Source: Sinisalibacter aestuarii (lineage in GTDB: Bacteria; Pseudomonadota; Alphaproteobacteria; Rhodobacterales; Rhodobacteraceae). From it: a stretch of 64,000 bases of DNA. Shown here in pieces: positions 25,076 to 40,008 of this stretch. The first letter of the stretch is position 1. Every line of letters begins with the position of its first letter. The position numbers and the translations under genes are program-made. The stretch lies in assembly GCF_027923545.1 (NCBI RefSeq), contig NZ_BROH01000003.1:1-64000 (forward strand). Direction: 5' to 3'. Under the pieces are notes generated by a model that was not told the DNA's origin, searched no databases, and saw only the letters and a list, made by a program, of their open reading frames with translations.

Positions 25076-25519
25076 ATGTATCGCAGGGCCACGAGCGGCG
25101 GTTTTATCGTCATCACCACCTTCCTCATCGTCGTCGTGATGGCGCTGTTCACCTGGGTGATGTGGGGCATGGCGCGGCAGGTCTACACCATGACCGATGT
25201 GATGCTTGAGGTGAACGAGAGCTTCAAGGCGATGGTGGTCGATATGCACGGGATGGCCGAGGACGTGCACGCGATGAACGGCAATATCGTCACCATGACG
25301 GCGGCGATGGACGAGATGACCGGCCATATCGGCGAGATGGACGTGACGATGGCGACGATGGCCGGCGAAATCTCGACGATGGACGAGGCGGTGGGGCTGA
25401 TGGCCGGCACGGTTCAGGCGATGAATGCCAATGTCAGCCGGATGTCGCTCGACCTCGGCCGCGCCTCCTATGCCTTCTCGAACCCGATGTCCTACATGTT
25501 CGGCGGCTTCCCGTTCTGA
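25076..25519 (+). CDS. Membrane-anchored coiled-coil protein with methionine heptads
   Basis: A 147-residue protein from ATG 25076, preceded by GGGAGG. One membrane span lies at about residues 10-32 (IVITTFLIVVVMALFTWVMW). After it, methionine occurs at residues 53, 60, 67, 74, 81, 88, 95, 102, 109, 116 and 123, exactly every seventh position, with extra Met at 57, 78 and 92. This is a long amphipathic helix or coiled coil with a methionine core. The C-terminus is FGGFPF. I do not recognise a family. It stands 274 bases before the RND operon. Confidence 0.75.
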   Translation: MYRRATSGGFIVITTFLIVVVMALFTWVMWGMARQVYTMTDVMLEVNESFKAMVVDMHGMAEDVHAMNGNIVTMTAAMDEMTGHIGEMDVTMATMAGEISTMDEAVGLMAGTVQAMNANVSRMSLDLGRASYAFSNPMSYMFGGFPF

Positions 25520-25793: not shown

Positions 25794-26951
25794 ATGGGAA
25801 ACCACGTGCGAATCGCTGTCGGCCTGTTTGCCGCATCTCTGCTGGGCGCTTTTTCCGGTGCCGCGCTTGCGCAATCCCACGCGCCGGCCAGTTCGGGCGG
25901 CTATCAGACCGCGCCGGTCATGATCACGCAGCTTGGCGGCTCGGCGATCGTTGGCGGCACGGTGATCCCGTTCAAGGAAGTCACGCTGTCGGCGCAGGTG
26001 CCCGGGCGGGTGATCTTTCTGGCCGGGGCCGAGGGGCACCGCGCGGCTGAGGGCGAGGTGCTGGTGCAGATCGACGATGCCGATCTTCAGGCCCGCCGCC
26101 GGGCGGCGGTGAGCCAGGTCTACCAGGCCGAGGCAGCGTTGCGGAATTCCTACATGCAGTACAACCGCGAGCTCTATTCGCCGCGGGTCAATTCGATCAG
26201 CGGCTTCCCCGGCATGGGCATTCCGGCCACCTTCGACCAGTTCTTCACCCGCGGCTTCTCATCGGCGATGGGCCAGTCCAGCCCGGGGCTTGAGCGGCAG
26301 GCGGATCTGTATGCGCAGGGTGTCGGTGTCGATCAGGCATCGAGCGGGCTGACCCAGGCGCAGGCCAATCTCGAAAGCATCGACGCGACGCTGAACGATT
26401 TCCGCGCCTCCGCCGCCTTCGACGGCATCGTCATGCGCAAGCATGTGGAGGTGGGCGATACCGTGCAGCCCGGCATGCCGCTGATCGACTTCGCCTTCAT
26501 CGACTATCTGCGGATCGAGGCCGATGTGCCGGTGCGGCTTGCGGCGGGGCTGTCGGAAGGGATGCTGGTGCCCGCGCGGCTCGATTCCGGTGGCGGGCCG
26601 GTCGAGGCGCGGGTGGCGCAGATCTACCCGGTGGCCGATCCGAAGCGCCACACGGTGACGGTCAAGTTCGACCTGCCGCTCGGCACGAGGGGCGGCCCCG
26701 GCATGTATGCCGAAGTGACGGTGCCCGACGCCTCGGTGCCGACGCAGGCGCAAACCAGCGTGCCGGCGGAAGCGCTGGTCTGGCGCGGCAGCCTGCCATC
26801 GGTCTTCGTGCTCGAAAACGGGGCGCCGTCGCTGCGCGTGGTCCGGGTGGGCTACCCGCTGGCGGATGGCTCGATCTCGGTCGTCTCCGGCCTGTCCGGC
26901 GGCGAAACGGTGATCCTGTCGCCGCCGTCATCGCTGGTCTCAGGTCACTGA
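25794..26951 (+). CDS. RND efflux periplasmic adaptor (membrane fusion protein)
   Basis: A 385-residue exported adaptor. Signal peptide VGLFAASLLGAFSGAALAQ. The biotinyl-lipoyl half motifs are GTVIPFKEVTLSAQVPGRVIFLAGAEGHRAAEGEVLVQIDD and, after a helical hairpin, FDGIVMRKHVEVGDTVQPG. Membrane-proximal domains follow. It should link an RND pump to an outer-membrane channel, though no TolC-type gene is in the window. The ATG at 25794 has a perfect GGGAGGAGG. It is the first gene of the long operon; the 100 bases upstream are strikingly AT-rich. Confidence 0.92.
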   Translation: MGNHVRIAVGLFAASLLGAFSGAALAQSHAPASSGGYQTAPVMITQLGGSAIVGGTVIPFKEVTLSAQVPGRVIFLAGAEGHRAAEGEVLVQIDDADLQARRRAAVSQVYQAEAALRNSYMQYNRELYSPRVNSISGFPGMGIPATFDQFFTRGFSSAMGQSSPGLERQADLYAQGVGVDQASSGLTQAQANLESIDATLNDFRASAAFDGIVMRKHVEVGDTVQPGMPLIDFAFIDYLRIEADVPVRLAAGLSEGMLVPARLDSGGGPVEARVAQIYPVADPKRHTVTVKFDLPLGTRGGPGMYAEVTVPDASVPTQAQTSVPAEALVWRGSLPSVFVLENGAPSLRVVRVGYPLADGSISVVSGLSGGETVILSPPSSLVSGH

Positions 26952-26979
26952 GCGCCGGTCGGAGGTCTGGGGAGAGACG

Positions 26980-29900
26980 ATGACGACAGAGCGGGAGGAA
27001 TTCGGAACCACGGCGCCGGGCGAAGGGCTCGGCCTTGCGGGGCGTCTGGCGAAGGCGTTCATCAATTCGCCGCTCTCGCCGCTCTTGCTGCTGGCCTGCC
27101 TTGGCCTCGGCATCATGGGGCTGATCCTCACCCCCCGGCAGGAAGACCCGCAGATCTCGGTGCCGATGGTCGATGTGTTCTTCTCCTATCCCGGCATTTC
27201 CGCCGAACAGGTGGCGGCGCTGGCGACCGATCCGCTTGAGCGGCTGATGAGCGAGATCCCCGGCGTCGAACACGTCTATTCCATCTCCGAACGCAACGGC
27301 GCGATGGTGACCGTGCAGTTCGAGGTGGGCGAGGAGATGGGCGACAGCCTCGTCAAGCTCAACGACAAGATCCAGTCCAATCTCGACCGTATCCCGCCCG
27401 GCGTGAGCCAGCCGCTGATCAAGCCCAAGGGCGTTGACGATGTGCCGGTGGTGACGCTCACCCTGTGGAGCCACGATGTCGACGAGGGCGCGCTGCGGGC
27501 GCTCGGCCTCGATGTGATGCAACGGCTGAAGGAAGTGCCCAATACCGCGCAGAGCTTCGTGGTCGGCGGCCGGTCCGACGCGATCAAGGTGGAAGTGTTC
27601 CCCGAGCGGCTTGCAGGCTTCGGCATCGGCCTCGACGAGATTGCCCAGACCATCCGGGCGGCCAATTCCGAGCGCGGGGTCGGCATGGTCGAGGCCGGGC
27701 AAAGCTCCTTCGCGCTCTATACCGGCTCGTTCCTGCGCAGCGCCCGAGACATCGAAAACCTGATGATCGGCGTGAGCCAGGGCCAGCCCACCTATATCCG
27801 CGACGTGGCGCTGGTGACCCAGGGAACCGACGATGCCTCGTCGATGGTGAGCTACTATACCGGCCCCGCCTATGGCGATCACGCCGAGGGCGAGGCCGCC
27901 CATGCCGGGCCGGTCGCCCCGCTCGGCGCCCCCGCCGTGACCATCGCCGTGGCCAAGAAATCGGGCGCCAACGGTGTGACCGTGGCCAATGCGGTGCTGG
28001 CCTATGTGGATCGGCTGCAGGGCAACCTGATCCCCGACAATGTGCATGTGGAAATCACCCGCAATTACGGCGAAACGGCCAATGAAAAGGTCAACGAGCT
28101 GATCTTCAAGCTCTTCGTCGTCACCGGGGCCGTCACCCTGCTGATCTGGTTCGCGCTGGGGATGCGCGCGGCAGGCGTGGTGCTGGTGGTGATCCCGATC
28201 GTGATCCTCGTCACCGTCTTCTCGGCCTGGCTGCTGGGCTACACGATCGACCGGGTGTCGCTGTTTGCGCTGATCTTCTCCATCGGCATCCTCGTGGACG
28301 ATGCCATCGTCGTGGTGGAAAACATCTACCGGCGCTGGCTCGAAGAGGGGCAATGCACCGAGGGCTGTTCGGTCGACGCGGTGCGCGAAGTGGGCAACCC
28401 GACGATCCTCGCCACCCTCACGGTGATCGCCGCGCTGCTGCCGATGGGCTTCGTGCGTGGGATGATGGGCCCCTATATGGAGCCGATCCCGGCGCTCGGC
28501 TCGGTGGCGATGCTGTTCTCGCTTTTCGCCGCCTTCATCTTCACGCCCTGGCTGGCGCAGCGCATCCGCCCGCCGATGCATCTGCTGGAGAAGTCGCAGG
28601 CCAAGGAGCACAGGCAGAGCCTCGCGCTCAACCGCTTCTACGTGCGCCTGCTGGTGCCGCTGATCACCCGCAGGCCGGTGGGCTGGGGCTTCGCCATCGG
28701 CCTCGTGGCGGTGTTCTTCCTGTCGCTCTTCCTGTTCTCGGCCCAGGCGGTGACGGTGAAGATGCTGCCCAAGGACAACAAGCCGGAATACAACGTCACG
28801 CTCAACATGCCCGAGGGCACGCCCCTGCCGGTGACCGCCAATGTGGTCGGCGCGCTGTCGGAGAGGCTTCTGACGATCCCCGAAGTGACGGCGCTGCAAA
28901 GCTATGTCGGCACCGCGTCGCCCTTCAATTTCAACGGCCTGGTGCGCCATTCCTACATGCGGGACAAACCCTGGCAGGCCGATATCCAGATCCAGCTTCT
29001 GCCCAAGCACCACCGCGACCGCTCGTCGGAAGAGCTGGCGGCGATGACCCGCGAGATGCTCACGCCGGTGGCGCGCGAGCTGGGCGCGCGCATCGAAGTG
29101 GTCGAGATGCCGCCGGGGCCGCCGGTGATGCAGACGATGGTGGCCGAAATCTACGGCCCCGATGACACCACCCGCCGCCAGGCCGCCGCCGATATCCGCG
29201 CGCTGTTCGAGCAGGCCGAGATCACCGTCGATGTCGACAGCTATTTGCAGGACCCGTACACCTCGTGGCGCTTCGTGGTCGACCGCGAGAAGGCAAGCCG
29301 CCGCGGCGTGTCGGTCGAGACGATCAACCGCCAGCTTGAAATGGTGATGGGCGGCTTCCGGCTGGGCGATGTGAAGAACGAGCGCGCCGTCGAGCCGATG
29401 TTCATCTACCTGCAGATGCCGCTGGCGCTGCGCGGCCAGTTCGGGCGGCTCGGGCAATTGCCGGTGCCCTCGACCACGGGCGCGATGATCCCGCTCACCG
29501 AGCTTGGCCATTTCGAGCAGTTCCAGCTTGACGATCCGGTTTACCACAAGGATCTGCGGGCGGTGGAATACGTGACCGGCGAGGTCGCGGGCAAGCTGGG
29601 CGCGCCGATCTACGCGATCTTCGAGCTGGAAGACATGCTCGACAGCTATGTCGCGCCCGATGGCGTGCGGGTCGACACCAACTATATCGGCCCGCCGGAA
29701 GACAGCCTGTCGTCCGGTCTCGAATGGACCGGGGAATGGACCGTTACCTACGAGACCTTCCGCGATATGGGGCTGGCCTTCGGCGTCGCGCTGATCCTGA
29801 TCTATATCCTCGTGGTCTGGGAATTCGGCAATTTCACGCTGCCCGCCATCGTCATGGCGCCGATCCCGCTGACGCTGATCGGCATCGTGCCGGGGCACTG

Positions 29901-30825
29901 GCTGTTCGGCGCCTCGTTCACCGCCACCTCGATGATCGGGTTCATCGCATTGGCGGGGATCATCGTGCGCAACTCGATCCTGCTCGTCGATTTCTCGCTC
30001 CACGCGGTCGAGGGCGGAATGCGGGTGCAGGATGCGGTGATCTATTCCTGCCAGACCCGGACGCGGCCCATCATCATCACCGCGCTGGCGCTGATCGCAG
30101 GCTCCTCGGTGATCCTGTCGGACCCGATCTTTCAGGGCATGGCCATTTCGCTGATGTTCGGCGGGCTGGTCTCGACGCTGCTCACGCTGGTGGTGATCCC
30201 GCTCGGTTGCGTGAGCTTCCGCAAATCCCTGCTCGCCGCCTGCGATATGCCGCTGCCCGCGAGCGTCACCGATGAGGGGCCGGGCTATGGTGTGATGTCA
30301 CCGGCTGCTGGTCCGGATGCGGCGGTGGCGGCGGCGCGGGCCGAACGGCGTGCCGGCGGCGGCATTGCGCGCACGGCTTCGGCGGCGGCCTCGGCCACGG
30401 CGCGGGGCCTGTCGCGGCTGGCCTCCGGGCTGGGCAGGATGGCGGACCGGCATGGGGATACCTCCGGGACAGTGGCGCAGGCCGCGCCGGCTCCGGTCAC
30501 CCCGGCACCGGCTGAGCCGGCGAAAGCGGCGGCGGTGCCCAATGCTACGGTGACTGCGCCGTCCGACACCGCCCCGGCGCAGGAGGCCAAGCCCAAGCGC
30601 GCGGCGAAACCCAAGGCGGCGGCCAAACCGGCAAAGGCGCAAGCGGCGGCCAAGCCGAAACCGGCGGCCAAGCCGAAGGCGGCCGCCAAACCGAAAGCGC
30701 CCGCGAAACCGAAAACCAGCACGAAACCCGCCGCGCCGGCAAAGCCGAAACGGGCCAGGCCCGCGACGCCGGGCGCGCGGCGGGGCATCCGGCTCAAGGG
30801 CATGGAGGATGGCGGCGATGAATAG
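26980..30825 (+). CDS. RND-family efflux permease with Lys/Ala/Pro-rich C-terminal tail
   Basis: A 1281-residue inner-membrane pump. About twelve membrane segments and two large periplasmic loops match AcrB-type permeases; signatures include SPLLLLACLGLGIMGL, the docking region and the TM4 motif FSIGILVDDAIVVVENI, with the paired Asp for proton transfer. Typical RND proteins end soon after the last span (about residue 1090). This one continues for about 190 residues with alternating KPKAAAKPK and PAKPK units, predicted to be cytoplasmic and strongly basic. The next gene overlaps its end by 8 bases. Confidence 0.92.
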   Translation: MTTEREEFGTTAPGEGLGLAGRLAKAFINSPLSPLLLLACLGLGIMGLILTPRQEDPQISVPMVDVFFSYPGISAEQVAALATDPLERLMSEIPGVEHVYSISERNGAMVTVQFEVGEEMGDSLVKLNDKIQSNLDRIPPGVSQPLIKPKGVDDVPVVTLTLWSHDVDEGALRALGLDVMQRLKEVPNTAQSFVVGGRSDAIKVEVFPERLAGFGIGLDEIAQTIRAANSERGVGMVEAGQSSFALYTGSFLRSARDIENLMIGVSQGQPTYIRDVALVTQGTDDASSMVSYYTGPAYGDHAEGEAAHAGPVAPLGAPAVTIAVAKKSGANGVTVANAVLAYVDRLQGNLIPDNVHVEITRNYGETANEKVNELIFKLFVVTGAVTLLIWFALGMRAAGVVLVVIPIVILVTVFSAWLLGYTIDRVSLFALIFSIGILVDDAIVVVENIYRRWLEEGQCTEGCSVDAVREVGNPTILATLTVIAALLPMGFVRGMMGPYMEPIPALGSVAMLFSLFAAFIFTPWLAQRIRPPMHLLEKSQAKEHRQSLALNRFYVRLLVPLITRRPVGWGFAIGLVAVFFLSLFLFSAQAVTVKMLPKDNKPEYNVTLNMPEGTPLPVTANVVGALSERLLTIPEVTALQSYVGTASPFNFNGLVRHSYMRDKPWQADIQIQLLPKHHRDRSSEELAAMTREMLTPVARELGARIEVVEMPPGPPVMQTMVAEIYGPDDTTRRQAAADIRALFEQAEITVDVDSYLQDPYTSWRFVVDREKASRRGVSVETINRQLEMVMGGFRLGDVKNERAVEPMFIYLQMPLALRGQFGRLGQLPVPSTTGAMIPLTELGHFEQFQLDDPVYHKDLRAVEYVTGEVAGKLGAPIYAIFELEDMLDSYVAPDGVRVDTNYIGPPEDSLSSGLEWTGEWTVTYETFRDMGLAFGVALILIYILVVWEFGNFTLPAIVMAPIPLTLIGIVPGHWLFGASFTATSMIGFIALAGIIVRNSILLVDFSLHAVEGGMRVQDAVIYSCQTRTRPIIITALALIAGSSVILSDPIFQGMAISLMFGGLVSTLLTLVVIPLGCVSFRKSLLAACDMPLPASVTDEGPGYGVMSPAAGPDAAVAAARAERRAGGGIARTASAAASATARGLSRLASGLGRMADRHGDTSGTVAQAAPAPVTPAPAEPAKAAAVPNATVTAPSDTAPAQEAKPKRAAKPKAAAKPAKAQAAAKPKPAAKPKAAAKPKAPAKPKTSTKPAAPAKPKRARPATPGARRGIRLKGMEDGGDE
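30590..30770 (+). repeat. Degenerate tandem repeat encoding K-P-K-A-A units
   Basis: Within the 3' end of the permease gene, short units built around aag/aaa-ccg-aag-gcg-gcg recur many times, encoding the basic tail. Unit length varies between about 9 and 18 bases. The arrangement resembles histone H1-like C-terminal domains and could vary in length between strains. Confidence 0.6.
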
Positions 30826-31342
30826 GGCGTATCCGGCAATCGCATTGGCGCTGGCGCTCGGTCTGACCGCGCCGGCGGCGGGGCAGGGGCAGGCGGGCTT
30901 TCCGCCGATCCCGGGGCCGTTCATGCCCGCCCCCGGTGCGCCGGGCATGGGGCCGGTGCCATTCGGCGCGCCGGGCTATGCCGCCGCGCCGGTGCGCCCG
31001 ATGTTCCAGCCGCCGGCAAATGCGATGCGGCTGCCCTATTGGATGCAGCAGGCTCCGGGAGGGCAGCCGGTGGCGGTGCCCGAGGGTATGGGTGGCGCGA
31101 CCGGCGAGAGCGTGGCCACCGGCTTTGGCCAGGCCACGGCGTCGGGCGCCTTGCCGACCTATCCGGCGCAGCCGGCCGCGCCCGGTTACGGCGCGGCAGC
31201 CCCGGCGCCGCCCGGCATGGCGCCGCCGCAGGGCTGGGTCTTTGGCGCACCGCCGGGTTGGAACAATGCACCCTATGTGCCGCAACCGGGCTGGGGCGGC
31301 GGCTGGGGCGGCGTGCAGCCCGGCGGCCCGGGCCGGAACTGA
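30818..31342 (+). CDS. Exported Pro/Gly/Ala-rich protein of unknown function
   Basis: A 174-residue protein from ATG 30818 (GGAGG 9 bases upstream). Signal peptide AIALALALGLTAPAAGQGQ. The mature part is dominated by Pro, Gly and Ala with few charged residues; it includes MRLPYWMQQAPGGQPVAV and ends in a Gly/Trp-rich stretch (GWGGGWGGVQPGG). It lacks catalytic motifs and looks structural. It shares composition with the next two gene products. Its start overlaps the permease stop. Confidence 0.75.
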   Translation: MNRAYPAIALALALGLTAPAAGQGQAGFPPIPGPFMPAPGAPGMGPVPFGAPGYAAAPVRPMFQPPANAMRLPYWMQQAPGGQPVAVPEGMGGATGESVATGFGQATASGALPTYPAQPAAPGYGAAAPAPPGMAPPQGWVFGAPPGWNNAPYVPQPGWGGGWGGVQPGGPGRN

Positions 31343-31356
31343 GGAGGAGAGGCGCG

Positions 31357-31983
31357 ATGCGACGGATATCGGATTGGCGGATGCCGGCAGGACGGGGGCG
31401 TGGCCCGGCGCTGGCCTGTGCCACGGTGCTGTGCCTTTCCGGCGCCGCCGGAGCGCAGACCGCCAATCCGTGGACACCTCCGGGCGCAGCGCCCGAGGCG
31501 CAATATCCCGGCGCGGCGGCTGGTGCCCAGCCCACATGGGCAGGGCAGGCCCCCGCGGCCAGCCGCTACGCGCCCGCCGATCTCGATGCGCGGCTTTCGG
31601 GCGCGGTGCGGGCCGCGCCAGTGCCGCCCGCGCCTGCGGCACCCGGCTATGTGCCGGGGCAATTGCAGGCGCCGAGCGCGGTGCCGCAGGCCGTGGCGCC
31701 GCAGGTGATGATGCCGCAGGCGGCACTGCCCTACACCGCGCTGCCGGGGCAGGCCGGGGTTCTGGGCTATGCGCCGGTCACCCCGGTGGTGCCGGGCGTC
31801 GCGACCTATCCCGGCGCGCTGCCCTATGGCGCGGGGATCGGGGCCTGGCCGGGCTATGGCGCAGGACTGCCCTATTATGGCGCGGGCGGCTGGCCCGGCG
31901 CGGGATATGGCGGCGGCTGGCCCGGCTCCGGCTGGGGCGGCGGCTGGCCGATGACAGGATTTTCGCCCTTCGGATTCTGGTGA
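31357..31983 (+). CDS. Exported Pro/Ala/Gly-rich structural-type protein
   Basis: A 208-residue protein with GAGGAGGAG before ATG 31357. The N-terminus has a basic run then LACATVLCLSGAAGAQ, a signal peptide. The middle is Pro/Ala-rich with PADLDARLSGAVRAAP as the only ordered-looking piece, and the last 60 residues are Gly/Tyr/Trp-rich (GAGLPYYGAGGWPGAGYGGG) ending FSPFGFW. No enzymatic motif. It appears to be a second member of the same low-complexity group in this operon. Confidence 0.75.
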   Translation: MRRISDWRMPAGRGRGPALACATVLCLSGAAGAQTANPWTPPGAAPEAQYPGAAAGAQPTWAGQAPAASRYAPADLDARLSGAVRAAPVPPAPAAPGYVPGQLQAPSAVPQAVAPQVMMPQAALPYTALPGQAGVLGYAPVTPVVPGVATYPGALPYGAGIGAWPGYGAGLPYYGAGGWPGAGYGGGWPGSGWGGGWPMTGFSPFGFW

Positions 31984-31998
31984 AAACGGGGTGGAGAC

Positions 31999-32017
31999 CC
32001 TCTTCCGACGGAAGAGG
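31999..32017 (+). promoter_or_regulatory. Hairpin in the leader of the sulfur-globule-like gene
   Basis: CCTCTTCC (31999-32006) and GGAAGAGG (32010-32017) form a perfect 8-bp stem with a 3-base loop, 78 bases before the start of the Gly/Trp-rich gene. There is no T-run. It may stabilise the transcript 3' end of the upstream gene or allow higher expression of the downstream gene through processing. Confidence 0.5.
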
Positions 32018-32094
32018 ACATACGGTGAATGGGTGCACGTCCCGGCGCCCGGGATCCGCGAGGAGGACGGGACAGAACTTGGGAGACTATTATT

Positions 32095-32607
32095 ATGCGT
32101 AAAGCACTTGTTACGGTTGCCCTCGCCGCCGGTCTGGCGGGTGGGCTCGCGGCTTCGGCCGAAGCTCAGGGCTGGGGTTATCCCGGCTATGGTTATGGCG
32201 CGCCCGGTTACGGGCCGGGCTATGGCGGTTGGGGGCCCGGCTGGGGCAACAACTGGGGTGGTCCGGGCTGGGGTGGCCCCGGCTGGGGCAATAACTGGAT
32301 GCCCTGGAACAATGGTTGGAACAACGGCTGGGGCAACAACTGGGGCCCGTTCAACAGCGACGGTTCCGGTAACGGCTCGTTCAACTTCGGCTTCTCCGGC
32401 AATGCCGAGGGCGCCGGGCGCGGCCAGGGCTACGGCAGCGGCTATGGCAGCGGCTACAACGCCCCCTATGGCTACTACCCCAACTACGGTGCGCCCGGCA
32501 TGATGCCGCCGGGCATGATGCCGAACCCCGATGGCACGATGCCGGCGGCGCCGGGCGATGCCGGTGGCGAGCCGCAGGCCCCGACCGCCGAGGGCGACGG
32601 CAACTGA
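32095..32607 (+). CDS. Sulfur-globule-protein-like Gly/Trp/Tyr/Asn-rich exported protein
   Basis: A 170-residue protein. Signal peptide RKALVTVALAAGLAGGLAAS ending AEAQ. The mature part is built of repeats such as GYGAPGYGPGYGG and PGWGNNW, very rich in Gly, Tyr, Trp and Asn, then a Ser/Gly region and a MMPPGMMP segment. Composition, signal peptide and repeats resemble the sulfur globule envelope proteins (SgpA/B/C) of purple sulfur bacteria, but low-complexity similarity can mislead. GGGAG lies 9 bases upstream. Its 111-base leader is the largest gap so far in the operon. Confidence 0.65.
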   Translation: MRKALVTVALAAGLAGGLAASAEAQGWGYPGYGYGAPGYGPGYGGWGPGWGNNWGGPGWGGPGWGNNWMPWNNGWNNGWGNNWGPFNSDGSGNGSFNFGFSGNAEGAGRGQGYGSGYGSGYNAPYGYYPNYGAPGMMPPGMMPNPDGTMPAAPGDAGGEPQAPTAEGDGN

Positions 32608-32693
32608 TCGCCGGAGCCAGTATACCGGCCTGTTCCCGCGACATGCGGGGGCAGGCCGCCCCCTGACAGATTTTCTGCAAACGGAGGCCCCCC

Positions 32694-33500
32694 ATGCGCC
32701 TGCGCCGCAATCCGACTGCCCGCCCCGCCATTGCGCGCGTATCTGCACGCCGCTGGCGAAGGCGCGCGCTGGCCGGGCTGGCGGCGGTCATGTTGCCCGC
32801 CCTTGCCCTCGCGCAATCCGCGCCGCCGGCCTATTCCGCCGATGCGGTCTACCGCGCGCCGGATGGCAGCCAGAGCACCGGCCGCGTCATCAAATCCGGG
32901 CCCGACATGCGGCTGGAATTCATCCAGGGCGACCGCCCGGTGGTGCAGATCATCCGCCGCGCCGTGGGCGTGATGTATGTGCTCGATCCGGCGAGCCAGA
33001 GCTATTACGAGATGCGCGGCACGCCCGAACCCGACGTGAACGAAACCGCCTATGCGCCGCCCTGCGATCAGGCCGCGCAGGCCGGGGCCTGCAGCTTCAT
33101 CGGCACCGAGACCACCTCCGGCATCACCGCCGAAATCTGGGAGATGGGCCAGCCCGGGCAGGCGATCCGCATCCTCTGGGATGGCGCGCGCAAACGGGCG
33201 CTCCGGCAGGAATTTCCCGACGGATCGGTCATGGCGATGCGCTTCGAGGCGATGGAGGAGATCGCCGGGCGTCAGGTCGAGCATTGGTCGATCACCGTTA
33301 CCGGCGCGGGGCAGGCCCCGATGGGCGGCCATTGGTATTACGATCCCGAATTGCGCGTCGAACTGCGTGAAGAGCTGCCCTCGGGCGAGCTGCGCAGCCT
33401 TGAGCATATCGCCGTCGGCGCTGTCGATCCGGCGCTGTTCACTGTGCCGGCGGGCTGGTCTCAGATCGCCCCGCCGCAGGCCGCGCCCTCGGGCAACTGA
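32694..33500 (+). CDS. Exported DUF4412-like protein
   Basis: A 268-residue protein. The N-terminus is strongly basic (RRNPTARPAIARVSARRWRR) before a hydrophobic segment and cleavage site ALAQS, a twin-Arg-like or plain Sec signal. The mature part (YSADAVYRAPDGSQSTGRVIKSGPDMRLEF and MYVLDPASQSYYEMRG) looks like DUF4412/LolA-like beta-sheet proteins that bind lipids or act in the envelope. Two Cys (DQAAQAGACS region) may pair. ACGGAGG precedes the ATG. Confidence 0.7.
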   Translation: MRLRRNPTARPAIARVSARRWRRRALAGLAAVMLPALALAQSAPPAYSADAVYRAPDGSQSTGRVIKSGPDMRLEFIQGDRPVVQIIRRAVGVMYVLDPASQSYYEMRGTPEPDVNETAYAPPCDQAAQAGACSFIGTETTSGITAEIWEMGQPGQAIRILWDGARKRALRQEFPDGSVMAMRFEAMEEIAGRQVEHWSITVTGAGQAPMGGHWYYDPELRVELREELPSGELRSLEHIAVGAVDPALFTVPAGWSQIAPPQAAPSGN

Positions 33501-33515
33501 CGAAAGGGGTGGGGG

Positions 33516-34127
33516 ATGCTGACGCTGATTGCCAATTTCAAGGGCGGCACCGGCAAGAGCACGGTGGTGTTCAACCTCGCCGTCTGGTGCCTGATGAACG
33601 GGCGCGAGGTGCAGGTCTACGATCTCGATCCGCAGCGCACGGTGACCGATACCGCCGATATCCGCGCCGAGATGGGCTATGAGCCGGGCTTTGGCGTGGC
33701 GCATGAGCTGCCCGCCCGTGCCCCGCGCGGCGAAGGGCTGATTGATGTCGGCCTGTCCGATACCGGGGCGATGCGCGCCGCCGTGCGCGCGGCGGGGCGG
33801 ATCGTGATCCCGGTATCTCCCTCGCAGGCCGATATCTGGGCCACCCAGCATTTTCTCGAAATCATCGGCGAGGAGCGCAAGGGCAAGCGCAAACCCGAGG
33901 TGCTCGCCTTCGTCAACCGCGCCGACCCGCATCCGCGCTCGCGCGAAAACGCCGAGACCTATGCCGCCTTCAAACTGCTGCCGGGCGTGACGGCGCTGAA
34001 GCCGCGCCTTGTCCAGCGGCTCGCCTTCCGCCGTTCGTTTTCCGAGGGTCTGGCGGCGTTCGAGCTGGAGCCGGGCGGCAAGGCGGCGAAGGAACTCGAC
34101 GCGCTCGCCCGCGCGATCTTTACGTAA
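33516..34127 (+). CDS. Short ParA/MinD-type ATPase
   Basis: A 203-residue P-loop ATPase. The deviant Walker A KGGTGKST (residues 9-16) with the signature first lysine marks the ParA/MinD group, and DLDPQ follows near residue 37. It lacks a DNA-binding N-terminus and any ParB partner nearby. Short orphan ParA proteins often position protein complexes, chemoreceptor arrays or organelles on membrane or nucleoid. It lies 15 bases after the DUF4412-like gene and 25 bases before the TPR protein. Confidence 0.9.
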   Translation: MLTLIANFKGGTGKSTVVFNLAVWCLMNGREVQVYDLDPQRTVTDTADIRAEMGYEPGFGVAHELPARAPRGEGLIDVGLSDTGAMRAAVRAAGRIVIPVSPSQADIWATQHFLEIIGEERKGKRKPEVLAFVNRADPHPRSRENAETYAAFKLLPGVTALKPRLVQRLAFRRSFSEGLAAFELEPGGKAAKELDALARAIFT

Positions 34128-34152
34128 CCCCGGTCGGGGAAGGAGTGTTGCC

Positions 34153-34788
34153 GTGATTGGTCCGATCCTGCGCCTTGTTGTGACCTACCTCGTGCTGATC
34201 GCCGCCGTGGTGGCGGTGTTCAACCGCGACAGGCTGGGGGCTGTGTTCGGCGGCGATGACGCGCCGCCGGTCGCCGTCGCCCCGACAGCCCCCGCGCCGG
34301 CGCCAGAGCCGGCCCAGCCCGCGCCGGTGACCGAGGCCCCGGCGCAAGCACCTGTGCCGCAAGAGCCGGTCTACGGCTCCGATCTGCAGATGCCGAGCGC
34401 CGCGCCCGCGCCGCAGGCCGCTGCACCGCAAGCGGCGGCTGAGCCGTCGCCAATGCAAGCGCCCGCCGCGCCCGCCACCGATGCCGCCGTGGCCGGCGCG
34501 ATCAACGCCGCCCGGCAAGCCTATTGGTCGGGCGATATCGAGGGCGCGCGGGCGCAGATGCAGGCGCTCGCCGCCGCCCATCCCGAGAGTATCGAGATCG
34601 CGGGCGAATTGGGCAACCTGCACTTCGCGCTGCAGGATTACCCCGCCGCCGCCGAGGCCTGGCACCGCGCCGGGCTGTTGATGATCGGGGCCGGGCAGGG
34701 GCCGCGGCTGATGAGCCTGCTGCCGGGGCTGCGGTCGATTGACCCGGACAAGGCGGCGGATCTCGCCGCGCGGTTGCAGGGGCGGTAG
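34153..34788 (+). CDS. Membrane-anchored Pro/Ala-rich protein with TPR-like C-terminus
   Basis: A 211-residue protein with a GTG start (AGGAG 7 bases upstream). One N-terminal membrane span (ILRLVVTYLVLIAAVVAVF), then an Ala/Pro/Gln-rich linker of about 90 residues, then a helical region (AARQAYWSGDIEGARAQMQAL, NLHFALQDYPAAAEAWHRAG) that fits two or three TPR-like repeats. It is probably a scaffold for partner binding in the cytoplasm or periplasm; orientation cannot be decided from sequence alone. Confidence 0.75.
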   Translation: MIGPILRLVVTYLVLIAAVVAVFNRDRLGAVFGGDDAPPVAVAPTAPAPAPEPAQPAPVTEAPAQAPVPQEPVYGSDLQMPSAAPAPQAAAPQAAAEPSPMQAPAAPATDAAVAGAINAARQAYWSGDIEGARAQMQALAAAHPESIEIAGELGNLHFALQDYPAAAEAWHRAGLLMIGAGQGPRLMSLLPGLRSIDPDKAADLAARLQGR

Positions 34789-34796
34789 GATCGGCC

Positions 34797-36272
34797 ATGA
34801 ACCAATCGCTCTCCACCCGACTCGGCCGGCTCGAAACCCATCTGAAGGCGGAAAATCCGGTGCTGCTGGAGGTGCTGCCGACCTATTACAAGGCCGACAA
34901 GCTGCTGCGCCGGATGGGGCTGATCGACAAGCAGACCTCGCTTGCCAGCCGCATCTCGTGGTGGCCGCTGATCGCGGTGATGGGCACGTTTTCCTCCGGC
35001 AAATCCACCTTCATCAACTCCTTCGTGGGCGAAAAGGTGCAGGATACCGGCAACCAGGCAGTGGATGACAAGTTTACCGTGATCTGCCATCGCTCCGGCG
35101 ATCAGGCGGGCAACCGCACCCTGCCGGGCACCGCGCTGGACGCCGATCCGCGCTTTCCCTTCTTCCGTATCTCCGGCGAGATCGAGAAGGTGGCGAAGGG
35201 CGAGGGCAAGCATATCGAGAGCTATCTGCAATTGCGCACCACGCAGACGCCGGCGATCGAGAACAAGATCATCATCGACAGCCCCGGCTTCGATGCCGAC
35301 GACCAGCGCCGCTCGACGCTGCGCATCACCGATCACATCATTGATCTCTCCGATCTGGTGCTGGTCTTCTTCGATGCCCGCCATCCCGAGCCGGGCGCGA
35401 TGCAGGATACGCTGGAACATCTGGTCAGCCGCATCGCGAAGCGCACCGATGCCTCGAAATTCCTCTATGTGCTGAACCAGATCGACACGGCGGCGGCGGA
35501 GGACAACCCCGAAGACATCACCGGCGCCTGGCAGCGGGCGCTGGCCCATGCCGGGCTGTCGGCGGGCCAGTTCTTCACCATCTACGACGAGAACGCGGCA
35601 GTGACGATCAAGGATCACGCCCGCGAAAAGCGTTTCCGCGAGAAGCGCGATACCGACATGGCCCGCATCCGCGCCCGGATCGACGAGGTGGAGTTGCACC
35701 GCAATTACCGGATCGTGAGCTTTCTCGAAACGATGGCCAAGGAACTGGAGCATGACGTGCTGCCCCGGCTGGAAACGGCGCGCGATCGCTGGCGGCGTGG
35801 GGTGGGGCTGATCGACCTTGCCGCCCTCGTCGCGGTGATCGCGGCCACCGGCGGGCTGGCCTATGCCTTCGGCTGGCCGCTTGCCGACATTCTCACGCTC
35901 GACTGGCTGGCCGGGCACCGGATCGAGGCGGTGGCGATCGGCGTGGCGGCGCTGGTGATGGCGGCGGCGGTGCATGTCTGGGCGCGCGCGGTGGTGGCGC
36001 GCCGGGTGGCGCGCTCGCTGCCCGAGGCCGATGGCGAGCTTGAGCTGAACCTGCGCGCCGCCTTCCTCAAGGGCACCGAGATCTGGCGCCCGATCCTGCG
36101 CGCGCGCCCGGTGGGCTGGGGCCGGCGCGCGGCGGCCCGGCTGCACGCGATCCGCGACACGGTGGCCGGGCATATCCAGAATCTGAACGACCGCTATGCC
36201 GACCCGTCGGTCAAGTCGCGCCCGCCCGAGCCGGTGGCGCAGGGTAACGAGGAGCCTGCCAAGGATGTATGA
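34797..36272 (+). CDS. Dynamin-like GTPase with two membrane segments
   Basis: A 491-residue GTPase. P-loop GTFSSGKST at residues 63-71, a candidate switch threonine near residue 94, G3 DSPGF at 161-165 and G4 NQID at 227-230 follow dynamin/EHD-type order. After a helical region two hydrophobic segments (about 341-365 and 384-405, the latter AVAIGVAALVMAAAVHVWA) anchor it in the membrane. Bacterial dynamin-like proteins bend or fuse membranes. Eight bases separate it from the TPR gene; its 3' end overlaps the next gene by 8 bases. Confidence 0.88.
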   Translation: MNQSLSTRLGRLETHLKAENPVLLEVLPTYYKADKLLRRMGLIDKQTSLASRISWWPLIAVMGTFSSGKSTFINSFVGEKVQDTGNQAVDDKFTVICHRSGDQAGNRTLPGTALDADPRFPFFRISGEIEKVAKGEGKHIESYLQLRTTQTPAIENKIIIDSPGFDADDQRRSTLRITDHIIDLSDLVLVFFDARHPEPGAMQDTLEHLVSRIAKRTDASKFLYVLNQIDTAAAEDNPEDITGAWQRALAHAGLSAGQFFTIYDENAAVTIKDHAREKRFREKRDTDMARIRARIDEVELHRNYRIVSFLETMAKELEHDVLPRLETARDRWRRGVGLIDLAALVAVIAATGGLAYAFGWPLADILTLDWLAGHRIEAVAIGVAALVMAAAVHVWARAVVARRVARSLPEADGELELNLRAAFLKGTEIWRPILRARPVGWGRRAAARLHAIRDTVAGHIQNLNDRYADPSVKSRPPEPVAQGNEEPAKDV

Positions 36273-36837
36273 AGAGAATTGCCCGATCCCCGAGGGCCGC
36301 TGCGCCGATCTCGGCTACCGGCTGGCAGTCTATGAGGCGGGCCATGCGCTGACCGCGCGGGCGATGGGGTTTGAGATCCTGTCGGTGACGATGTTGCCGC
36401 GCCCGCCGGTGCTGGAGAGCGACAAGGTGCTGCACGGCAACAGTCTGACGGCGCTCGCCTCGGTGCTGGAAAACCGCTGCATCGAGTTGTTTGGCGGCCA
36501 GATTGCCGAGCAGCATGCCTGTGCTTCGGCCTCCTGCTGCACCGGCGACGTGGCGCGGATCGACGAACTGACCCGCCTGATCGCCGGGATCGAGGGCGAC
36601 CGGAGCGCGGAAGAAATCTGGTTCGAGCTGGAAGACGTGGCCGAACGGGTGTTTGCCGACCAGCGCATTCGCGATGCGATCCTGCCGCTGGCGGAATTCC
36701 TGTACGGCGAGGTGGAAGCGGGCCGCCCGGTGGTGCCGGGCGCGCAGGTGGAAGCGATGCTCGACGATCTTGTCGGCCCGCGCCCCGACCGCTCGCGCAA
36801 GGGGTTGCGGCGGTTTTTGTCGCGCACGCGGGCCTGA
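36265..36837 (+). CDS. Free-standing M41 (FtsH-type) peptidase-like domain, active site altered
   Basis: A 190-residue protein from ATG 36265. It aligns by eye to the C-terminal peptidase domain of FtsH: RLAVYEAGHALTARAMGFEILSVTMLPR corresponds to the FtsH zinc-site helix and strand, and ELFGGQIAE and CTGDVARID correspond to the GG-AAE and GA-ND segments. The HExxH zinc motif reads Y-E-A-G-H (residues 23-27), so the first ligand is lost. No AAA ATPase domain is present. It is cysteine-rich around residues 86-92. It may be a pseudo-protease that binds substrates or regulates FtsH. Last gene of the operon. Confidence 0.65.
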   Translation: MYEENCPIPEGRCADLGYRLAVYEAGHALTARAMGFEILSVTMLPRPPVLESDKVLHGNSLTALASVLENRCIELFGGQIAEQHACASASCCTGDVARIDELTRLIAGIEGDRSAEEIWFELEDVAERVFADQRIRDAILPLAEFLYGEVEAGRPVVPGAQVEAMLDDLVGPRPDRSRKGLRRFLSRTRA

Positions 36838-36839
36838 AA

Positions 36840-39047
36840 TCAGTCGGGGTCGAGCCCTTCGAGCCGTTCCAGCATCGGCTGGATGTAATCGGCATAGCGC
36901 CGCCACGCCTCCGACGAGCCGGTATACATCTTCTGACGCACCTGCGTGGCCGAAACCGTGCGCACGGCCCGCTTGGTCTTGTGGAAGTCGAGGCAGGCAT
37001 CTTCCCAGTCCAGCCCGGCGGCTGCCACCAGCTTGCGGCTTTCTTCCTCCTGATGTTCGGTCAGCCGTTCGTAGGGCACGATGGTCACCCGGTCGGGGAA
37101 GTGCTTTTTCCAGAACGCCATCAGGTCGAGATGGATGCGGTACATCTCGGCGGTGTCGATCATGTCATGGCCGAAATTGTTGGCCCGCCCGAGGAAGCTG
37201 TTGGAATAGTTCGACCAGCAGGTCGCCCGGCTGTCGCGCCGCATGAACAACACCCGCGCCTCCGGCATCGCCGCGAGGGCGGGGCCGATATGGCGGAAGT
37301 TGAGCGGCGTCTTGTCGGTGACCACCGGCTTGTCGATGCCGTAGCGCACCACGCTGTCGAAATAGCTGCGCCGGAGCAGCATCAGATTTTCGCGGGTGAA
37401 GGGCTTGGGCGTGTCGCCGGGATACCAGCCGAGCTTGCCGCGCACCTCCGTCGCCAGCGCGTTGAGCTCGCCCGCGCCATGCACCTGGCTGTGGCTGGCG
37501 AGGATCTGCTCGACCAGCGAGGTGCCCGAGCGCGGCATCCCGACGATGAAGACGGGGCGGGCAGGCGCCGGAATCTCGGCCATCGCTTCGGCGTCGAGCG
37601 GGTCCACGCCGGCATCGAATGCTTCCTTCAGCCTGTTCAGCATCGCGCGGTGCTCTTCGATCTCATAGGGTTCCGACGCGCGGCGCAGGCGGTTGGCGCG
37701 GTGCAGATGCGCCATCGCCTCTTCCAGATCGTCCGCCTTGTCGAAGGCGTTGAACAGCGCGAGTTCGATCAGCGAGCGGTCGCCGCCGGGCAGGGTGTCA
37801 TCGGCGGCGAGGGCCTTGAGATGGGCCAGTTCGGGATGGTCGATGGGCAGGGTTTCCATCTGCCAGCGAATGCCAAGAGCCTGCAGGTTTGAGGGGTTGA
37901 TCTCCACCGCCTTGTCGATGGCCGCGATGGCGCCGGCCTTGTCGCCCAGCTCGCGCCGGCAGCTTCCAAGCAGGCCCCAGGCCTCGGCGCTGTTGGGATC
38001 GAGCGCAATCACCTGATCGCAGACCTCGATCGCTTCGCGCGAACGGCCGATATCGCGCAGCGACCGGGCGTAATTGTTGAGCAGCACGACGTTGCGCCTG
38101 TCGATCCGGGCGGCGCGGGCGAGATACTCCACCGCTTCGTCGATCCGGTGCAGCGTGACCAGTGCATTGCCGATATTGTTGAGCACGCCCGGGTTCTGCG
38201 GATCGAGCGCAAGCGCTGTGTGGAACGTATCGAGCGCGTCCTGGTGCTGTCCGGCGGCGGCATAGGCATTGCCGAGGCCGATATGGGTCTGGACCATTTT
38301 CGGCGCGAGCTTCACCGAGGTCCTGAACGGGCCGATCCCGTCTTCGGCGCGCCCGGTATTCACCAGCCCGTAGCCGAGCAGCATATGCGCCTGTGCGAGC
38401 TTCGCATCCAGCGCGAGGGCGGCGCGCGCCGAGGCTTCGACCGCGTCGAACTTGCCCATCAGCGCGTAGGCATTGGCCTTGTTCACATGCGCCCCGGCGA
38501 AACCGGGGTCGATCTCAAGCACACGCTCGTAACTCGCCAGCGCCTCATCGAGCTGTCCGGCGCGGGCCTGGGCCATGCCGAGCAGGTTGAGCAAGGCGGG
38601 CGAGCGGGGGAAGAGCAGGGCAAGGCGCTTGCCCTCGGTCACCGCCGCGCGCGGATCGCCCCGGTTGAGCATCCGCTCCAGCGCGGCCATCTGTTGCGGC
38701 GCGGGCGCGGGGCCGCCCTTTGCCGGCCGTGCGCCGCCGGAGCCGGATTTGGCGGCGGGCGCGGGGGCAGGGCGGCGGGGTTGAGCCGGGGCGGGGCCGC
38801 CGGCCAGGCCCGCCGGTGGTGCCACAGGCCGGGCGCCGGGGATCAGGCCCGCGCCGAGCGCGCCGCCGCCGGGCATGGCCGCCGGTCGCGGGCCGCCTGC
38901 GGGCGCCCCGAGCGAGGCCAGCCCCTTGCGCGCGGTCGCGTTGTTCGGAAACTGCGCGAGAATCTCGCGATAGAGCTTCGCCGCCCCGGCGCGGTTGCCG
39001 GATCTGGCGAGCTTCGCCGCCTTGCGCAATGTGCTGTCGATCGACAT
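36840..39047 (-). CDS. TPR-repeat sulfotransferase
   Basis: A 735-residue protein from ATG 39047 (GGGGGA 5 bases upstream). N-terminal residues 1-50 form helices (TLRKAAKLARSGNRAGAAKLYREIL), then a Pro/Ala/Gly-rich linker, then about eight TPR repeats (for example ALDPQNPGVLNNIGNALVTLHR). The C-terminal sulfotransferase domain has the PAPS-binding loop VGMPRSGTSLVEQIL near residue 500. It transfers sulfate to an unknown acceptor or acts as a tyrosylprotein-sulfotransferase-like enzyme. It converges with the M41-like gene with 2 bases between the stops. Confidence 0.88.
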   Translation of the reverse strand: MSIDSTLRKAAKLARSGNRAGAAKLYREILAQFPNNATARKGLASLGAPAGGPRPAAMPGGGALGAGLIPGARPVAPPAGLAGGPAPAQPRRPAPAPAAKSGSGGARPAKGGPAPAPQQMAALERMLNRGDPRAAVTEGKRLALLFPRSPALLNLLGMAQARAGQLDEALASYERVLEIDPGFAGAHVNKANAYALMGKFDAVEASARAALALDAKLAQAHMLLGYGLVNTGRAEDGIGPFRTSVKLAPKMVQTHIGLGNAYAAAGQHQDALDTFHTALALDPQNPGVLNNIGNALVTLHRIDEAVEYLARAARIDRRNVVLLNNYARSLRDIGRSREAIEVCDQVIALDPNSAEAWGLLGSCRRELGDKAGAIAAIDKAVEINPSNLQALGIRWQMETLPIDHPELAHLKALAADDTLPGGDRSLIELALFNAFDKADDLEEAMAHLHRANRLRRASEPYEIEEHRAMLNRLKEAFDAGVDPLDAEAMAEIPAPARPVFIVGMPRSGTSLVEQILASHSQVHGAGELNALATEVRGKLGWYPGDTPKPFTRENLMLLRRSYFDSVVRYGIDKPVVTDKTPLNFRHIGPALAAMPEARVLFMRRDSRATCWSNYSNSFLGRANNFGHDMIDTAEMYRIHLDLMAFWKKHFPDRVTIVPYERLTEHQEEESRKLVAAAGLDWEDACLDFHKTKRAVRTVSATQVRQKMYTGSSEAWRRYADYIQPMLERLEGLDPD

Positions 39048-39116
39048 GCATGTCCCCCAATCTGGTCCCGCGCGTGTTGTCTCACGTCGCGGGCGCAAAC
39101 GCCAGTGTCCGGCGGG

Positions 39117-39857
39117 TCAGCCGCCGTAGCGAGCCACGAAATTGCGCAGCACAAGCTCGGGAAAGCGCACGTCTTCGCCGCGCACCATCTCGATCAGCGC
39201 CTCCGCCGTTTCGGGCGGAAAATAGCCCTTGTGCCTGTAGATGCGAATGCGGGTTTCAAACCCGTCCGCATCGGCCTCGGGGTGAAACTGCGTTGCGTAG
39301 ACGTTCTGCCCGAAGCGCAGCATCTGAAACGGGGTGGGGCCGGAGCTGACGAGGTTGACCGTGCCGGGCGGCAGGGCCTGCACGGCCTCCTTGTGGCCGA
39401 CAAAGGCGTGGAACCGCCCCGGCATGCCTGCAAGCAGCGGATCGGCCCGGCCCGCCTCGGTGAGCGCGCAATCCACCGCGCTCACCGGCTCGCCGTATTT
39501 CTCTTTCGAGACGATCCCCGGTGCGAGGTGGTGGCCGAGAATGCCGATGCCGTAGCAGCAGCCGAGATAGGGTATGTCGCGCGCGCAGATCTCGGGCATC
39601 AGCCCCATGATCTCGTCTTCGATCTTCTTTTCCAGCGGGTCTTTCGTGGCCGGATCGTCGGAGACGCAGCCGGGACCGCCGCCGACGATCACCCCGGCAT
39701 GATCGTCGAGATCGAGATCGGCCGGCAGGTCTTCGAGATCGAGCCGGATCCGGCGCACCTGCGCCTCGTCGAGCCCGCCCTTGGCGAGAAACGCCTCGTA
39801 TTCATTGTCGGCGGCTTCGGTTTCGGGGCGGAGCTGAAGGATCAGGAAGGGCTTCAT
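39117..39857 (-). CDS. Class I glutamine amidotransferase-like protein
   Basis: A 246-residue GATase1 protein related to the GuaA glutaminase half. The nucleophile cysteine sits in LGCCYGIGILGHHL and the catalytic His-Glu in QFHPEAD near the C-terminus. No synthetase domain is fused, so it may be a gamma-glutamyl hydrolase or a stand-alone amidotransferase. It is the first gene of a minus-strand pair with the TPR-sulfotransferase, separated by 69 bases, and faces the multihaem cytochrome gene across 151 bases. Confidence 0.88.
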   Translation of the reverse strand: MKPFLILQLRPETEAADNEYEAFLAKGGLDEAQVRRIRLDLEDLPADLDLDDHAGVIVGGGPGCVSDDPATKDPLEKKIEDEIMGLMPEICARDIPYLGCCYGIGILGHHLAPGIVSKEKYGEPVSAVDCALTEAGRADPLLAGMPGRFHAFVGHKEAVQALPPGTVNLVSSGPTPFQMLRFGQNVYATQFHPEADADGFETRIRIYRHKGYFPPETAEALIEMVRGEDVRFPELVLRNFVARYGG

Positions 39858-40008
39858 GCCGATGCGCTACAGTCTTGGCCCGGTTCGGTCAAGCATGGGG
39901 GCGGTCCGATTGTCCCTGCGGCAATTCGTGCTCTCGATTCGACTCCCCGAAAAGTCACATACAGAATTCGGAATATTAACCGGCCGATCCGGGTGCGGAG
40001 GAGAAACG

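Follow-up and report, generated by a model that had tools for sequence, protein, structure and literature searches.

The window analysed here is a stretch of 64,000 nucleotides from contig NZ_BROH01000003.1 of Sinisalibacter aestuarii (Rhodobacteraceae), and within it a compact cluster encodes an RND pump with its adaptor, three low-complexity proteins, a LolA-like protein, a ParA-family ATPase, a membrane-anchored tetratricopeptide-repeat (TPR) protein, a dynamin-like GTPase and a degenerate M41-like peptidase domain. We consider it probable, at about 0.7, that this cluster specifies a machinery by which sulfur-oxidising bacteria assemble their periplasmic sulfur globules and put them in position. 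This reading draws on the conserved order of the genes, the family identities of their products and the association of the cluster with dsrA, all of which are observed in the genomes compared, and the carriers are mostly bacteria that seem to oxidise sulfur.

An initial annotation of the window had described ten same-direction, tightly packed genes with a largest gap of 111 bases, and had proposed a compartment-building or export system. The coordinates of the open reading frames confirm the layout (all ten on the plus strand, intergenic gaps from -17 to 111 bases, the largest being the leader before the Gly/Trp-rich gene). The outline of the proposed system also holds, although export, coating and placement are still matters of inference. 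The sulfur globule cargo, the dsr link, an eleventh gene (here called C29) and a leader RNA go beyond that description.

Conserved gene order in Rhodobacteraceae

We scanned named genomes for the dynamin-like GTPase and kept 80 of 126 loci, calling a locus long if it held at least 7.8 kb of DNA upstream of the GTPase gene and requiring at least 1.5 kb for counts downstream of it. In all 20 long Rhodobacteraceae loci the genes for the RND permease, the LolA-like protein, the ParA ATPase and the TPR protein lie upstream of the GTPase gene in the same order, and between the RND and LolA-like genes each of these loci has from one to three genes for low-complexity proteins whose N-termini look signal-like. 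The adaptor gene is present in 19 of the 20, the stretch available for the other (L013) stopping short of the adaptor position. The nearest named relatives of the window GTPase are from Rhodobacteraceae as well, with identities of 93% over 271 residues in a partial locus of a metagenome-assembled genome (MAG; L046), 85% in the MAG locus L013 and 76-78% in Maritimibacter.

A family sample of 295 Rhodobacteraceae genomes, one per genus, was examined in the same way, a carrier being defined as a genome with a full-length GTPase at E <= 1e-200, which reduced eight GTPase matches to five carriers. Matches in G025 and G083 (34% and 32% identity) were set aside as unrelated paralogues. Genome G206 was not counted because its locus (L124, 6342-9398) is a decayed remnant: C29, an adaptor, part of the GTPase and fragments of the M41 gene are left, and the genes from RND to TPR are gone. 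An independent search found the LolA-like gene in exactly the same five of the 295 genomes. The initial annotation had asked for such a survey, and had held that GTPase, ParA and M41 genes occurring mostly without the RND and Gly-rich genes would speak against a single system; within Rhodobacteraceae this is not what the 20 loci and five genomes display, and there the set behaves as a module.

The cluster core recurs in gammaproteobacteria and in one further, Magnetococcus-like genome, G338. Around a second LolA-like gene G338 carries, in turn, an adaptor, an RND permease, two Gly-rich proteins, the LolA-like protein, a Pro/Gly protein, two proteins matching the Pfam family PF17228 and, beside them, ParA and C25, a C29-like protein. 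Among 19 long loci from outside Rhodobacteraceae, eight have both RND and ParA and one has RND without ParA; where adaptor, RND, LolA-like, ParA and TPR genes are present they keep their order, the other 10 loci being uninformative on this point for want of RND, ParA and LolA-like genes. The GTPase family is thus broader than the system. In a tree of the GTPase the cluster-linked copies do not form one clade and require 14 label changes, the labels being limited by short contigs.

Three side observations concern this distribution. Lone orthologues of the GTPase stand at L047-L050, L085 and L088 (Azospirillum, Rhodospira, a Binatia MAG and NaphS2). Lone LolA-like genes from a phylum-wide sample (L113, L116, L118, L119, L121, L122 and L123) are often near genes for ribosomal RNA methylase-like and nucleoside diphosphate kinase-like proteins, named by eye from their N-termini, and possibly represent a second, different use of the LolA-like family. 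A DUF302-type protein (C33; L051, L056, L058, L071, L084 and L086) is encoded within or next to several clusters of gammaproteobacteria and in the vicinity of a few from Rhodobacteraceae.

Sulfur oxidation genes and Sgp-like proteins

In the family sample dsrA scored over its cut-off in 19 of the 295 genomes, and all five cluster carriers were among them (hypergeometric, 6.5e-7). In a wider set dsrA was present in 13 of 15 Rhodobacteraceae carriers and in 3 of 31 non-carriers (Fisher, 4.8e-7), these non-carriers being a hand-picked, non-random choice of low-numbered soxB-positive genomes and the carriers in the sox and dsrA tests also a selection. In a phylum sample picked by the LolA-like gene, 48 of 398 genomes were positive, of which 46 had the GTPase and 44 had dsrA, the positives coming mostly from few families so that the counts are not independent. 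Neither gene was found in 32 LolA-like-negative genomes (0 and 0), which were the first non-matching ones and were not matched by class. At one locus (L017) the genes for siroheme synthase, DsrA, a DsrB-like protein, DsrH and DsrC follow 1.3 to 8.4 kb past the last cluster gene, the dsr genes among them at 4-8 kb.

The host genome itself (G000; 4.1 Mb in 50 contigs) has soxB and dsrA, its best soxC match reaching only E 1.2e-7. Loss of soxC was considered as a rule and rejected, as soxC is over its cut-off in the four other family carriers. The gene soxB was likewise rejected as a marker, since it occurs in 183 of the 295 family genomes, all five carriers included, and is not discriminating; it was found in 18 of 30 carriers in the wider GTPase set. 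The genome with the decayed locus, G206, keeps dsrA. Presence of dsrA therefore does not call for the module, and some kinds of globule may not need it either. Many magnetotactic cocci contain sulfur globules, according to a passage of PMC6783814.

The third low-complexity protein provides a second line of evidence. We compared 31 proteins of this type, hand-chosen, together with that of the window, among 89 low-complexity genes called at loci of alpha- and gammaproteobacteria, with PF17228 (Sulphur globule protein; Sgp), and 25 of them, the window's included, matched at E <= 0.1. Of seven tested individually, four exceeded the cut-off of 26.7 bits (L017, 34.5; L087, 38.7; L091, 62.7; L114, 64.9) and three missed it (L056, 26.6; the second L114 protein, 20.7; L083, 16.6), the two L114 proteins being those beside ParA in G338. 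The Gly/Trp-rich protein of the window scored 18.8 bits. Because this copy lies below the cut-off and orthologues in the same slot lie above it, we call it Sgp-like and not a confirmed member. None of nine composition-preserving shuffles of three Sgp-like proteins matched PF17228, which indicates at the sequence level that the match is not due to composition alone. The Sgp-like proteins may reside on sulfur globules.

In the first low-complexity slot, Pro-rich genes with signal-like N-termini are found in relatives too, and in the second there are matches at the same place in some relatives. For the two window proteins concerned (30809-31342 and 31357-31983) the 19-residue hydrophobicity cut-off was not reached.

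Leader RNA and the remaining cluster proteins

Coordinates of the cluster features are collected in Table 1. In a Pfam search of the window proteins, the adaptor, RND permease, ParA and dynamin-like proteins exceeded gathering cut-offs, in keeping with the families named for the last three in the initial annotation, and no match was obtained for the LolA-like protein or for either of the first two low-complexity ones.

Table 1. Features of the cluster, in window coordinates.
Feature	Position	Strand	Basis
C29, eleventh gene	25076..25519	+	membrane protein, Met-heptad coiled coil
Periplasmic adaptor (membrane-fusion protein) of RND pump	25794..26951	+	HlyD_D23, TIGR01730
RND permease, Ala/Lys/Pro-rich tail	26980..30825	+	ACR_tran
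Pro/Gly/Ala-rich protein, first of three low-complexity	30809..31342	+	composition; signal-peptide-like N-terminus judged by eye
Gly/Pro/Ala-rich protein, second of three	31357..31983	+	composition; signal-peptide-like N-terminus judged by eye
Leader RNA, predicted H-type pseudoknot	32024..32095	+	alignment of 22 loci
Sgp-like Gly/Trp/Asn-rich predicted exported protein, third of three	32095..32607	+	PF17228, below cut-off
Periplasmic LolA-like protein, two invariant Cys	32694..33500	+	predicted structure, alignment of 32
ParA-family ATPase	33516..34127	+	CbiA, Walker A KGGTGKS
Membrane-anchored TPR protein	34153..34788	+	N-terminal hydrophobic segment; TPR profiles sub-threshold
Dynamin-like GTPase	34797..36272	+	Dynamin_N, G1/G3/G4
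Stand-alone degenerate FtsH-type (M41) peptidase domain	36265..36837	+	YEAGH replaces HEAGH; predicted fold

The leader before the Sgp-like gene is kept in 22 Rhodobacteraceae loci and is predicted to fold into a pseudoknot that is new to Rfam. Stem 1 pairs GGA..GGCA with TGCC..TCC, and stem 2 pairs GTCCCG in the loop of stem 1 with CGGGAC directly before the ribosome-binding site, giving an H-type pseudoknot. Across the 22 loci 91.5% of the alignment cells were paired, compared with at most 54.8% when the alignment was slid, and five pairs were changed on both sides, a count reached in only 2 of 500 shuffles. Two weak points are that stem 2 does not form its last pair in 11 of the 22 loci and that the number of further pair types was no better than in shuffles (267 of 500). 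Folding of the leaders of relatives against mononucleotide shuffles (29 tried, 1 skipped) gave z values from -5.1 to 0.4, most of them between -2.5 and 0.4; the pairing test on the alignment is the more telling of the two. The sole Rfam match, mir-598, reached 22.6 bits where the gathering score is 69 and was dismissed as chance.

A model of stem 1 only (R1), searched against 54 sources, gave 29 strong matches, namely the 22 training loci, three second copies of training loci (L009, L010 and L012) and four new loci (L011, L024, L031 and L037). Three of the four new matches end where an exported Gly-rich frame begins, and in L037 the start ATGCGTAAA is visible, though automated frame reading took another frame. 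One strong match was found in each of nine Rhodobacteraceae carrier genomes (9/9), and nine other genomes had none or weak ones. The non-Rhodobacteraceae loci supplied to the model gave no match at E <= 1, so this search does not establish the element as an ancestral part of the system.

The adaptor scored 56 bits for HlyD_D23 (cut-off 30) and 144.9 for TIGR01730 (cut-off 94.9), and the permease 464.9 bits for ACR_tran (cut-off 28). The permease fell below the cut-offs of all 16 listed NCBIfam models, the best score being 428.7 against 1250 bits, which leaves it outside the drug pumps so defined. The LolA-like protein has two invariant Cys in an alignment of 32, and its AlphaFold model (predicted local distance difference test, pLDDT, 87.2) had LolA3 as its best Foldseek match (E 4e-7), with a low TM-score of 0.34-0.37. 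In VIA-align, LolA chains reached Z up to 10.4, ependymin, VioE and RseB 10.8-11.1, and an uncharacterised Thermus protein 12.4. The modelled fold fits a candidate carrier or binder of a hydrophobic ligand.

The ParA ATPase, with a gene in all 20 long family loci, scored 44.6 bits for CbiA (cut-off 25.4), has a deviant Walker A motif (KGGTGKS) and lies under the cut-off of the NCBIfam ParA_partition model (NF041546; 122.6 versus 180 bits). The TPR protein has an N-terminal hydrophobic segment, and its best TPR profile score, 20.7 against 32.7 bits, is sub-threshold. C29 has a single N-terminal hydrophobic segment followed by a coiled coil in which Met recurs at every seventh position, 11 times in all from residue 53 to residue 123, and its gene is present in 15 of the 20 long Rhodobacteraceae loci, located after the M41-like gene in L021 and L022. 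Its N-terminus, MYRR, is common to all four aligned relatives (4/4), and by this and by position C29 is a candidate partner of ParA; it is also a candidate for a link spanning the envelope. C25 is encoded between the TPR and GTPase genes in several gammaproteobacterial loci, and hhalign relates it to C29 with 96.8% probability (E 2.5e-10), a value that Met-rich coiled coils may inflate.

The dynamin-like GTPase scored 59.9 bits for Dynamin_N (cut-off 27) and has G1 (GTFSSGKS), G3 (DSPG) and G4 (NQID) motifs and two hydrophobic segments, features from which a role in membrane remodelling may be inferred. The M41-like protein is sub-threshold by sequence (16.8 versus 29.9 bits), but its AlphaFold model (pLDDT 87.8) had structures of FtsH-family peptidases, FtsHi complexes included, as its top Foldseek rows (best E 3.9e-4), which supports the M41 fold of the degenerate peptidase recognised in the initial annotation. 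The HExxH motif is absent from all 27 aligned relatives (0/27), with Tyr in place of the first His, and this Tyr is invariant in the 26-row alignment that includes the window. With that His of the zinc motif replaced throughout, the protein is unlikely to cut peptides in the usual zinc-dependent way. The gene occurs in 24 of 29 Rhodobacteraceae loci and in none of 36 others, and is thus confined to Rhodobacteraceae among the loci examined, a lineage-specific addition.

Two neighbours of the cluster are recorded for completeness. At 36843-39098, on the minus strand, a gene for a TPR-sulfotransferase protein is convergent with the M41-like gene, and at 39856-42325 a multihaem cytochrome (PF11783) is followed by a cytochrome b561, likely a redox pair.

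Mechanism, alternatives and known systems

If the cluster serves sulfur globules, the RND pump, adaptor and LolA-like carrier would bring sulfur chains, or whichever lipid or protein keeps these in solution, to a site of growth on the inner membrane, where the low-complexity proteins, one of them Sgp-like, would make the globule coat and the leader RNA would tune output of the Sgp-like gene. ParA together with the membrane proteins (the Met-heptad coiled coil and the TPR protein) would anchor the globule to the cell axis or the nucleoid and share globules between daughters. Acting from the cytoplasm, the dynamin-like GTPase would shape the inner membrane where it surrounds the globule, and the degenerate FtsH domain would be a family-specific accessory. 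A fully specified trans-envelope organelle machine, with pump and LolA-like protein loading sulfur chains, the Sgp-like coat under control of the leader RNA, C29 as the tether to a cytoplasmic ParA for segregation and the GTPase moulding the membrane, is put forward only tentatively, and we think it more apt to be wrong than right in its details. In that model a ParA system would position its cargo across a membrane.

Several observations weigh against a globule machine. The cluster is missing from 14 of the 19 dsrA-positive family genomes, and among 13 selected carriers from outside Rhodobacteraceae dsrA was over the cut-off in six, partial or split and below it in two (L084 and L086) and neither in five (L056, L062, L076, L083 and L087). 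The dsrA model, TIGR02064, cannot by itself separate reverse from reductive enzymes, so that the type assigned here is a deduction; dsrEFH and dsrL mark the reverse type, as stated in a section of PMC6783814. The non-independence of the phylum counts and the sub-threshold PF17228 score of the window protein count on the same side. At 10 of the 19 long non-Rhodobacteraceae loci, those of Azospirillum, Rhodospira, Leucothrix and NaphS2 included, the GTPase gene is accompanied by no RND, ParA or LolA-like gene, and the GTPase alone cannot serve as a system-specific marker. Genomes G338 and G334 have it at a distance from the LolA-like gene, and the LolA-like gene is without other cluster genes at the seven lone loci listed above; since the LolA-like gene stands apart at such loci, those genomes support co-occurrence and not synteny. 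SUP05 bacteria form globules and are reported without dynamin in the relevant part of PMC6509183.

It is possible, although we think it unlikely, that the system instead exports elemental sulfur or polysulfide and coats it outside the cell, as a disposal route and not a periplasmic store. An RND pump and adaptor are central to the cluster, and three carriers in which dsrA does not exceed its cut-off (L062 Sulfurivirga, L076 Thiomicrospira and L083) have soxC over its own. In Azospira suillum an operon of adaptor, sulfide:quinone oxidoreductase (SQR) and RND genes is highly expressed during sulfide oxidation that yields both intra- and extracellular sulfur, but its deletion did not slow sulfide oxidation, as described in portions of PMC5358917. 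No outer-membrane channel stood out in the recurrent gene families of the loci, only part of which are identified. Moreover, ParA, TPR and dynamin proteins have no obvious role in secretion, and the dsrA association within Rhodobacteraceae points to re-oxidation of stored sulfur.

LolA-like folds and RND pumps often handle lipids or lipoproteins, and a LolA-like fold is present here. The cluster might accordingly belong to a lipid, vesicle or surface-layer system of bacteria from sulfidic habitats, with an ecological tie to dsrA and a purely compositional Sgp match, the more so as the window protein is under the Sgp cut-off and the Sgp family is itself of low complexity. We regard this as improbable, because the shuffles failed to match PF17228 whereas orthologues reach 62.7 and 64.9 bits, dsr genes adjoin the cluster in L017 and the dsrA association persists within one family sampled at one genome per genus. 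That an unrelated drug pump and a ParA/dynamin cell-division module are neighbours by chance, as lone GTPase orthologues in Azospirillum, NaphS2 and others might suggest, is very improbable given that all 20 long Rhodobacteraceae loci keep the gene order and that the pump scores far under the drug-pump cut-offs.

Assembly and positioning of periplasmic sulfur globules is therefore the reading we prefer. Sulfur globules and some of their coat proteins have long been known, and we found no description of how sulfur is delivered to them or of how the globules are enclosed, placed or inherited. A conserved cluster makes questions of delivery, enclosure and placement approachable by gene deletion and imaging in cultured bacteria, carriers of this kind including Maritimibacter fusiformis and Maritimibacter sp. 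HL-12 (L014 and L015) and Sulfurivirga caldicuralii (L062). If the reading is true, sulfur globules would be a new kind of cargo for ParA positioning, and a bacterial dynamin would gain a concrete role. No published description of the gene set was found in open-access full text, most subscription papers lying outside that search, so that a description elsewhere is possible; passages of PMC11267869, PMC10278575, PMC10241942 and PMC7580541 contain nothing on it. Open-access searches for ParA with sulfur globules returned magnetotactic and unrelated work only, and those for 'sulfur globule' together with 'dynamin' only PMC6509183. A paper on ParA in Halothiobacillus was considered as a precedent and set aside, there being no sulfur-globule cargo in passages of PMC10241942.

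Among known systems, the sulfur globule proteins SgpA-D of Allochromatium vinosum resemble the cluster in being exported low-complexity envelope proteins of the Pfam SGP family, and sgpD adjoins a gene for a hydrophobic/amphiphilic exporter (PMC10386293, in excerpt); mCherry is functional in the A. vinosum periplasm according to that paper. They differ in that ParA, TPR, LolA-like and dynamin genes go unmentioned in the same excerpt, a comparison by description and not by genome. The four genes Dsui_3440-3443 of Azospira suillum resemble the cluster in linking an RND pump and its adaptor with sulfide oxidation, but include SQR and one unknown gene, and none of the four, as named in the relevant passage of PMC5358917, is a gene for ParA, a dynamin or a coat protein. 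HAE1-type RND pumps of the AcrB family likewise have ACR_tran and adaptor domains over cut-off, whereas the cluster pump falls below the listed NCBIfam models, has a LolA-like neighbour and has no outer-membrane channel noticed with it. The GTPase has the Dynamin_N domain, G1/G3/G4 motifs and paired hydrophobic segments of bacterial dynamin-like proteins; it differs in belonging to an operon-like array that also includes pump and coat-like genes, although its orthologues also occur alone. Finally, McdAB positioning of carboxysomes offers a ParA-family ATPase that serves a protein-coated inclusion (PMC10241942, in part), but in the system proposed here the cargo would be periplasmic and a membrane-spanning partner would be needed.

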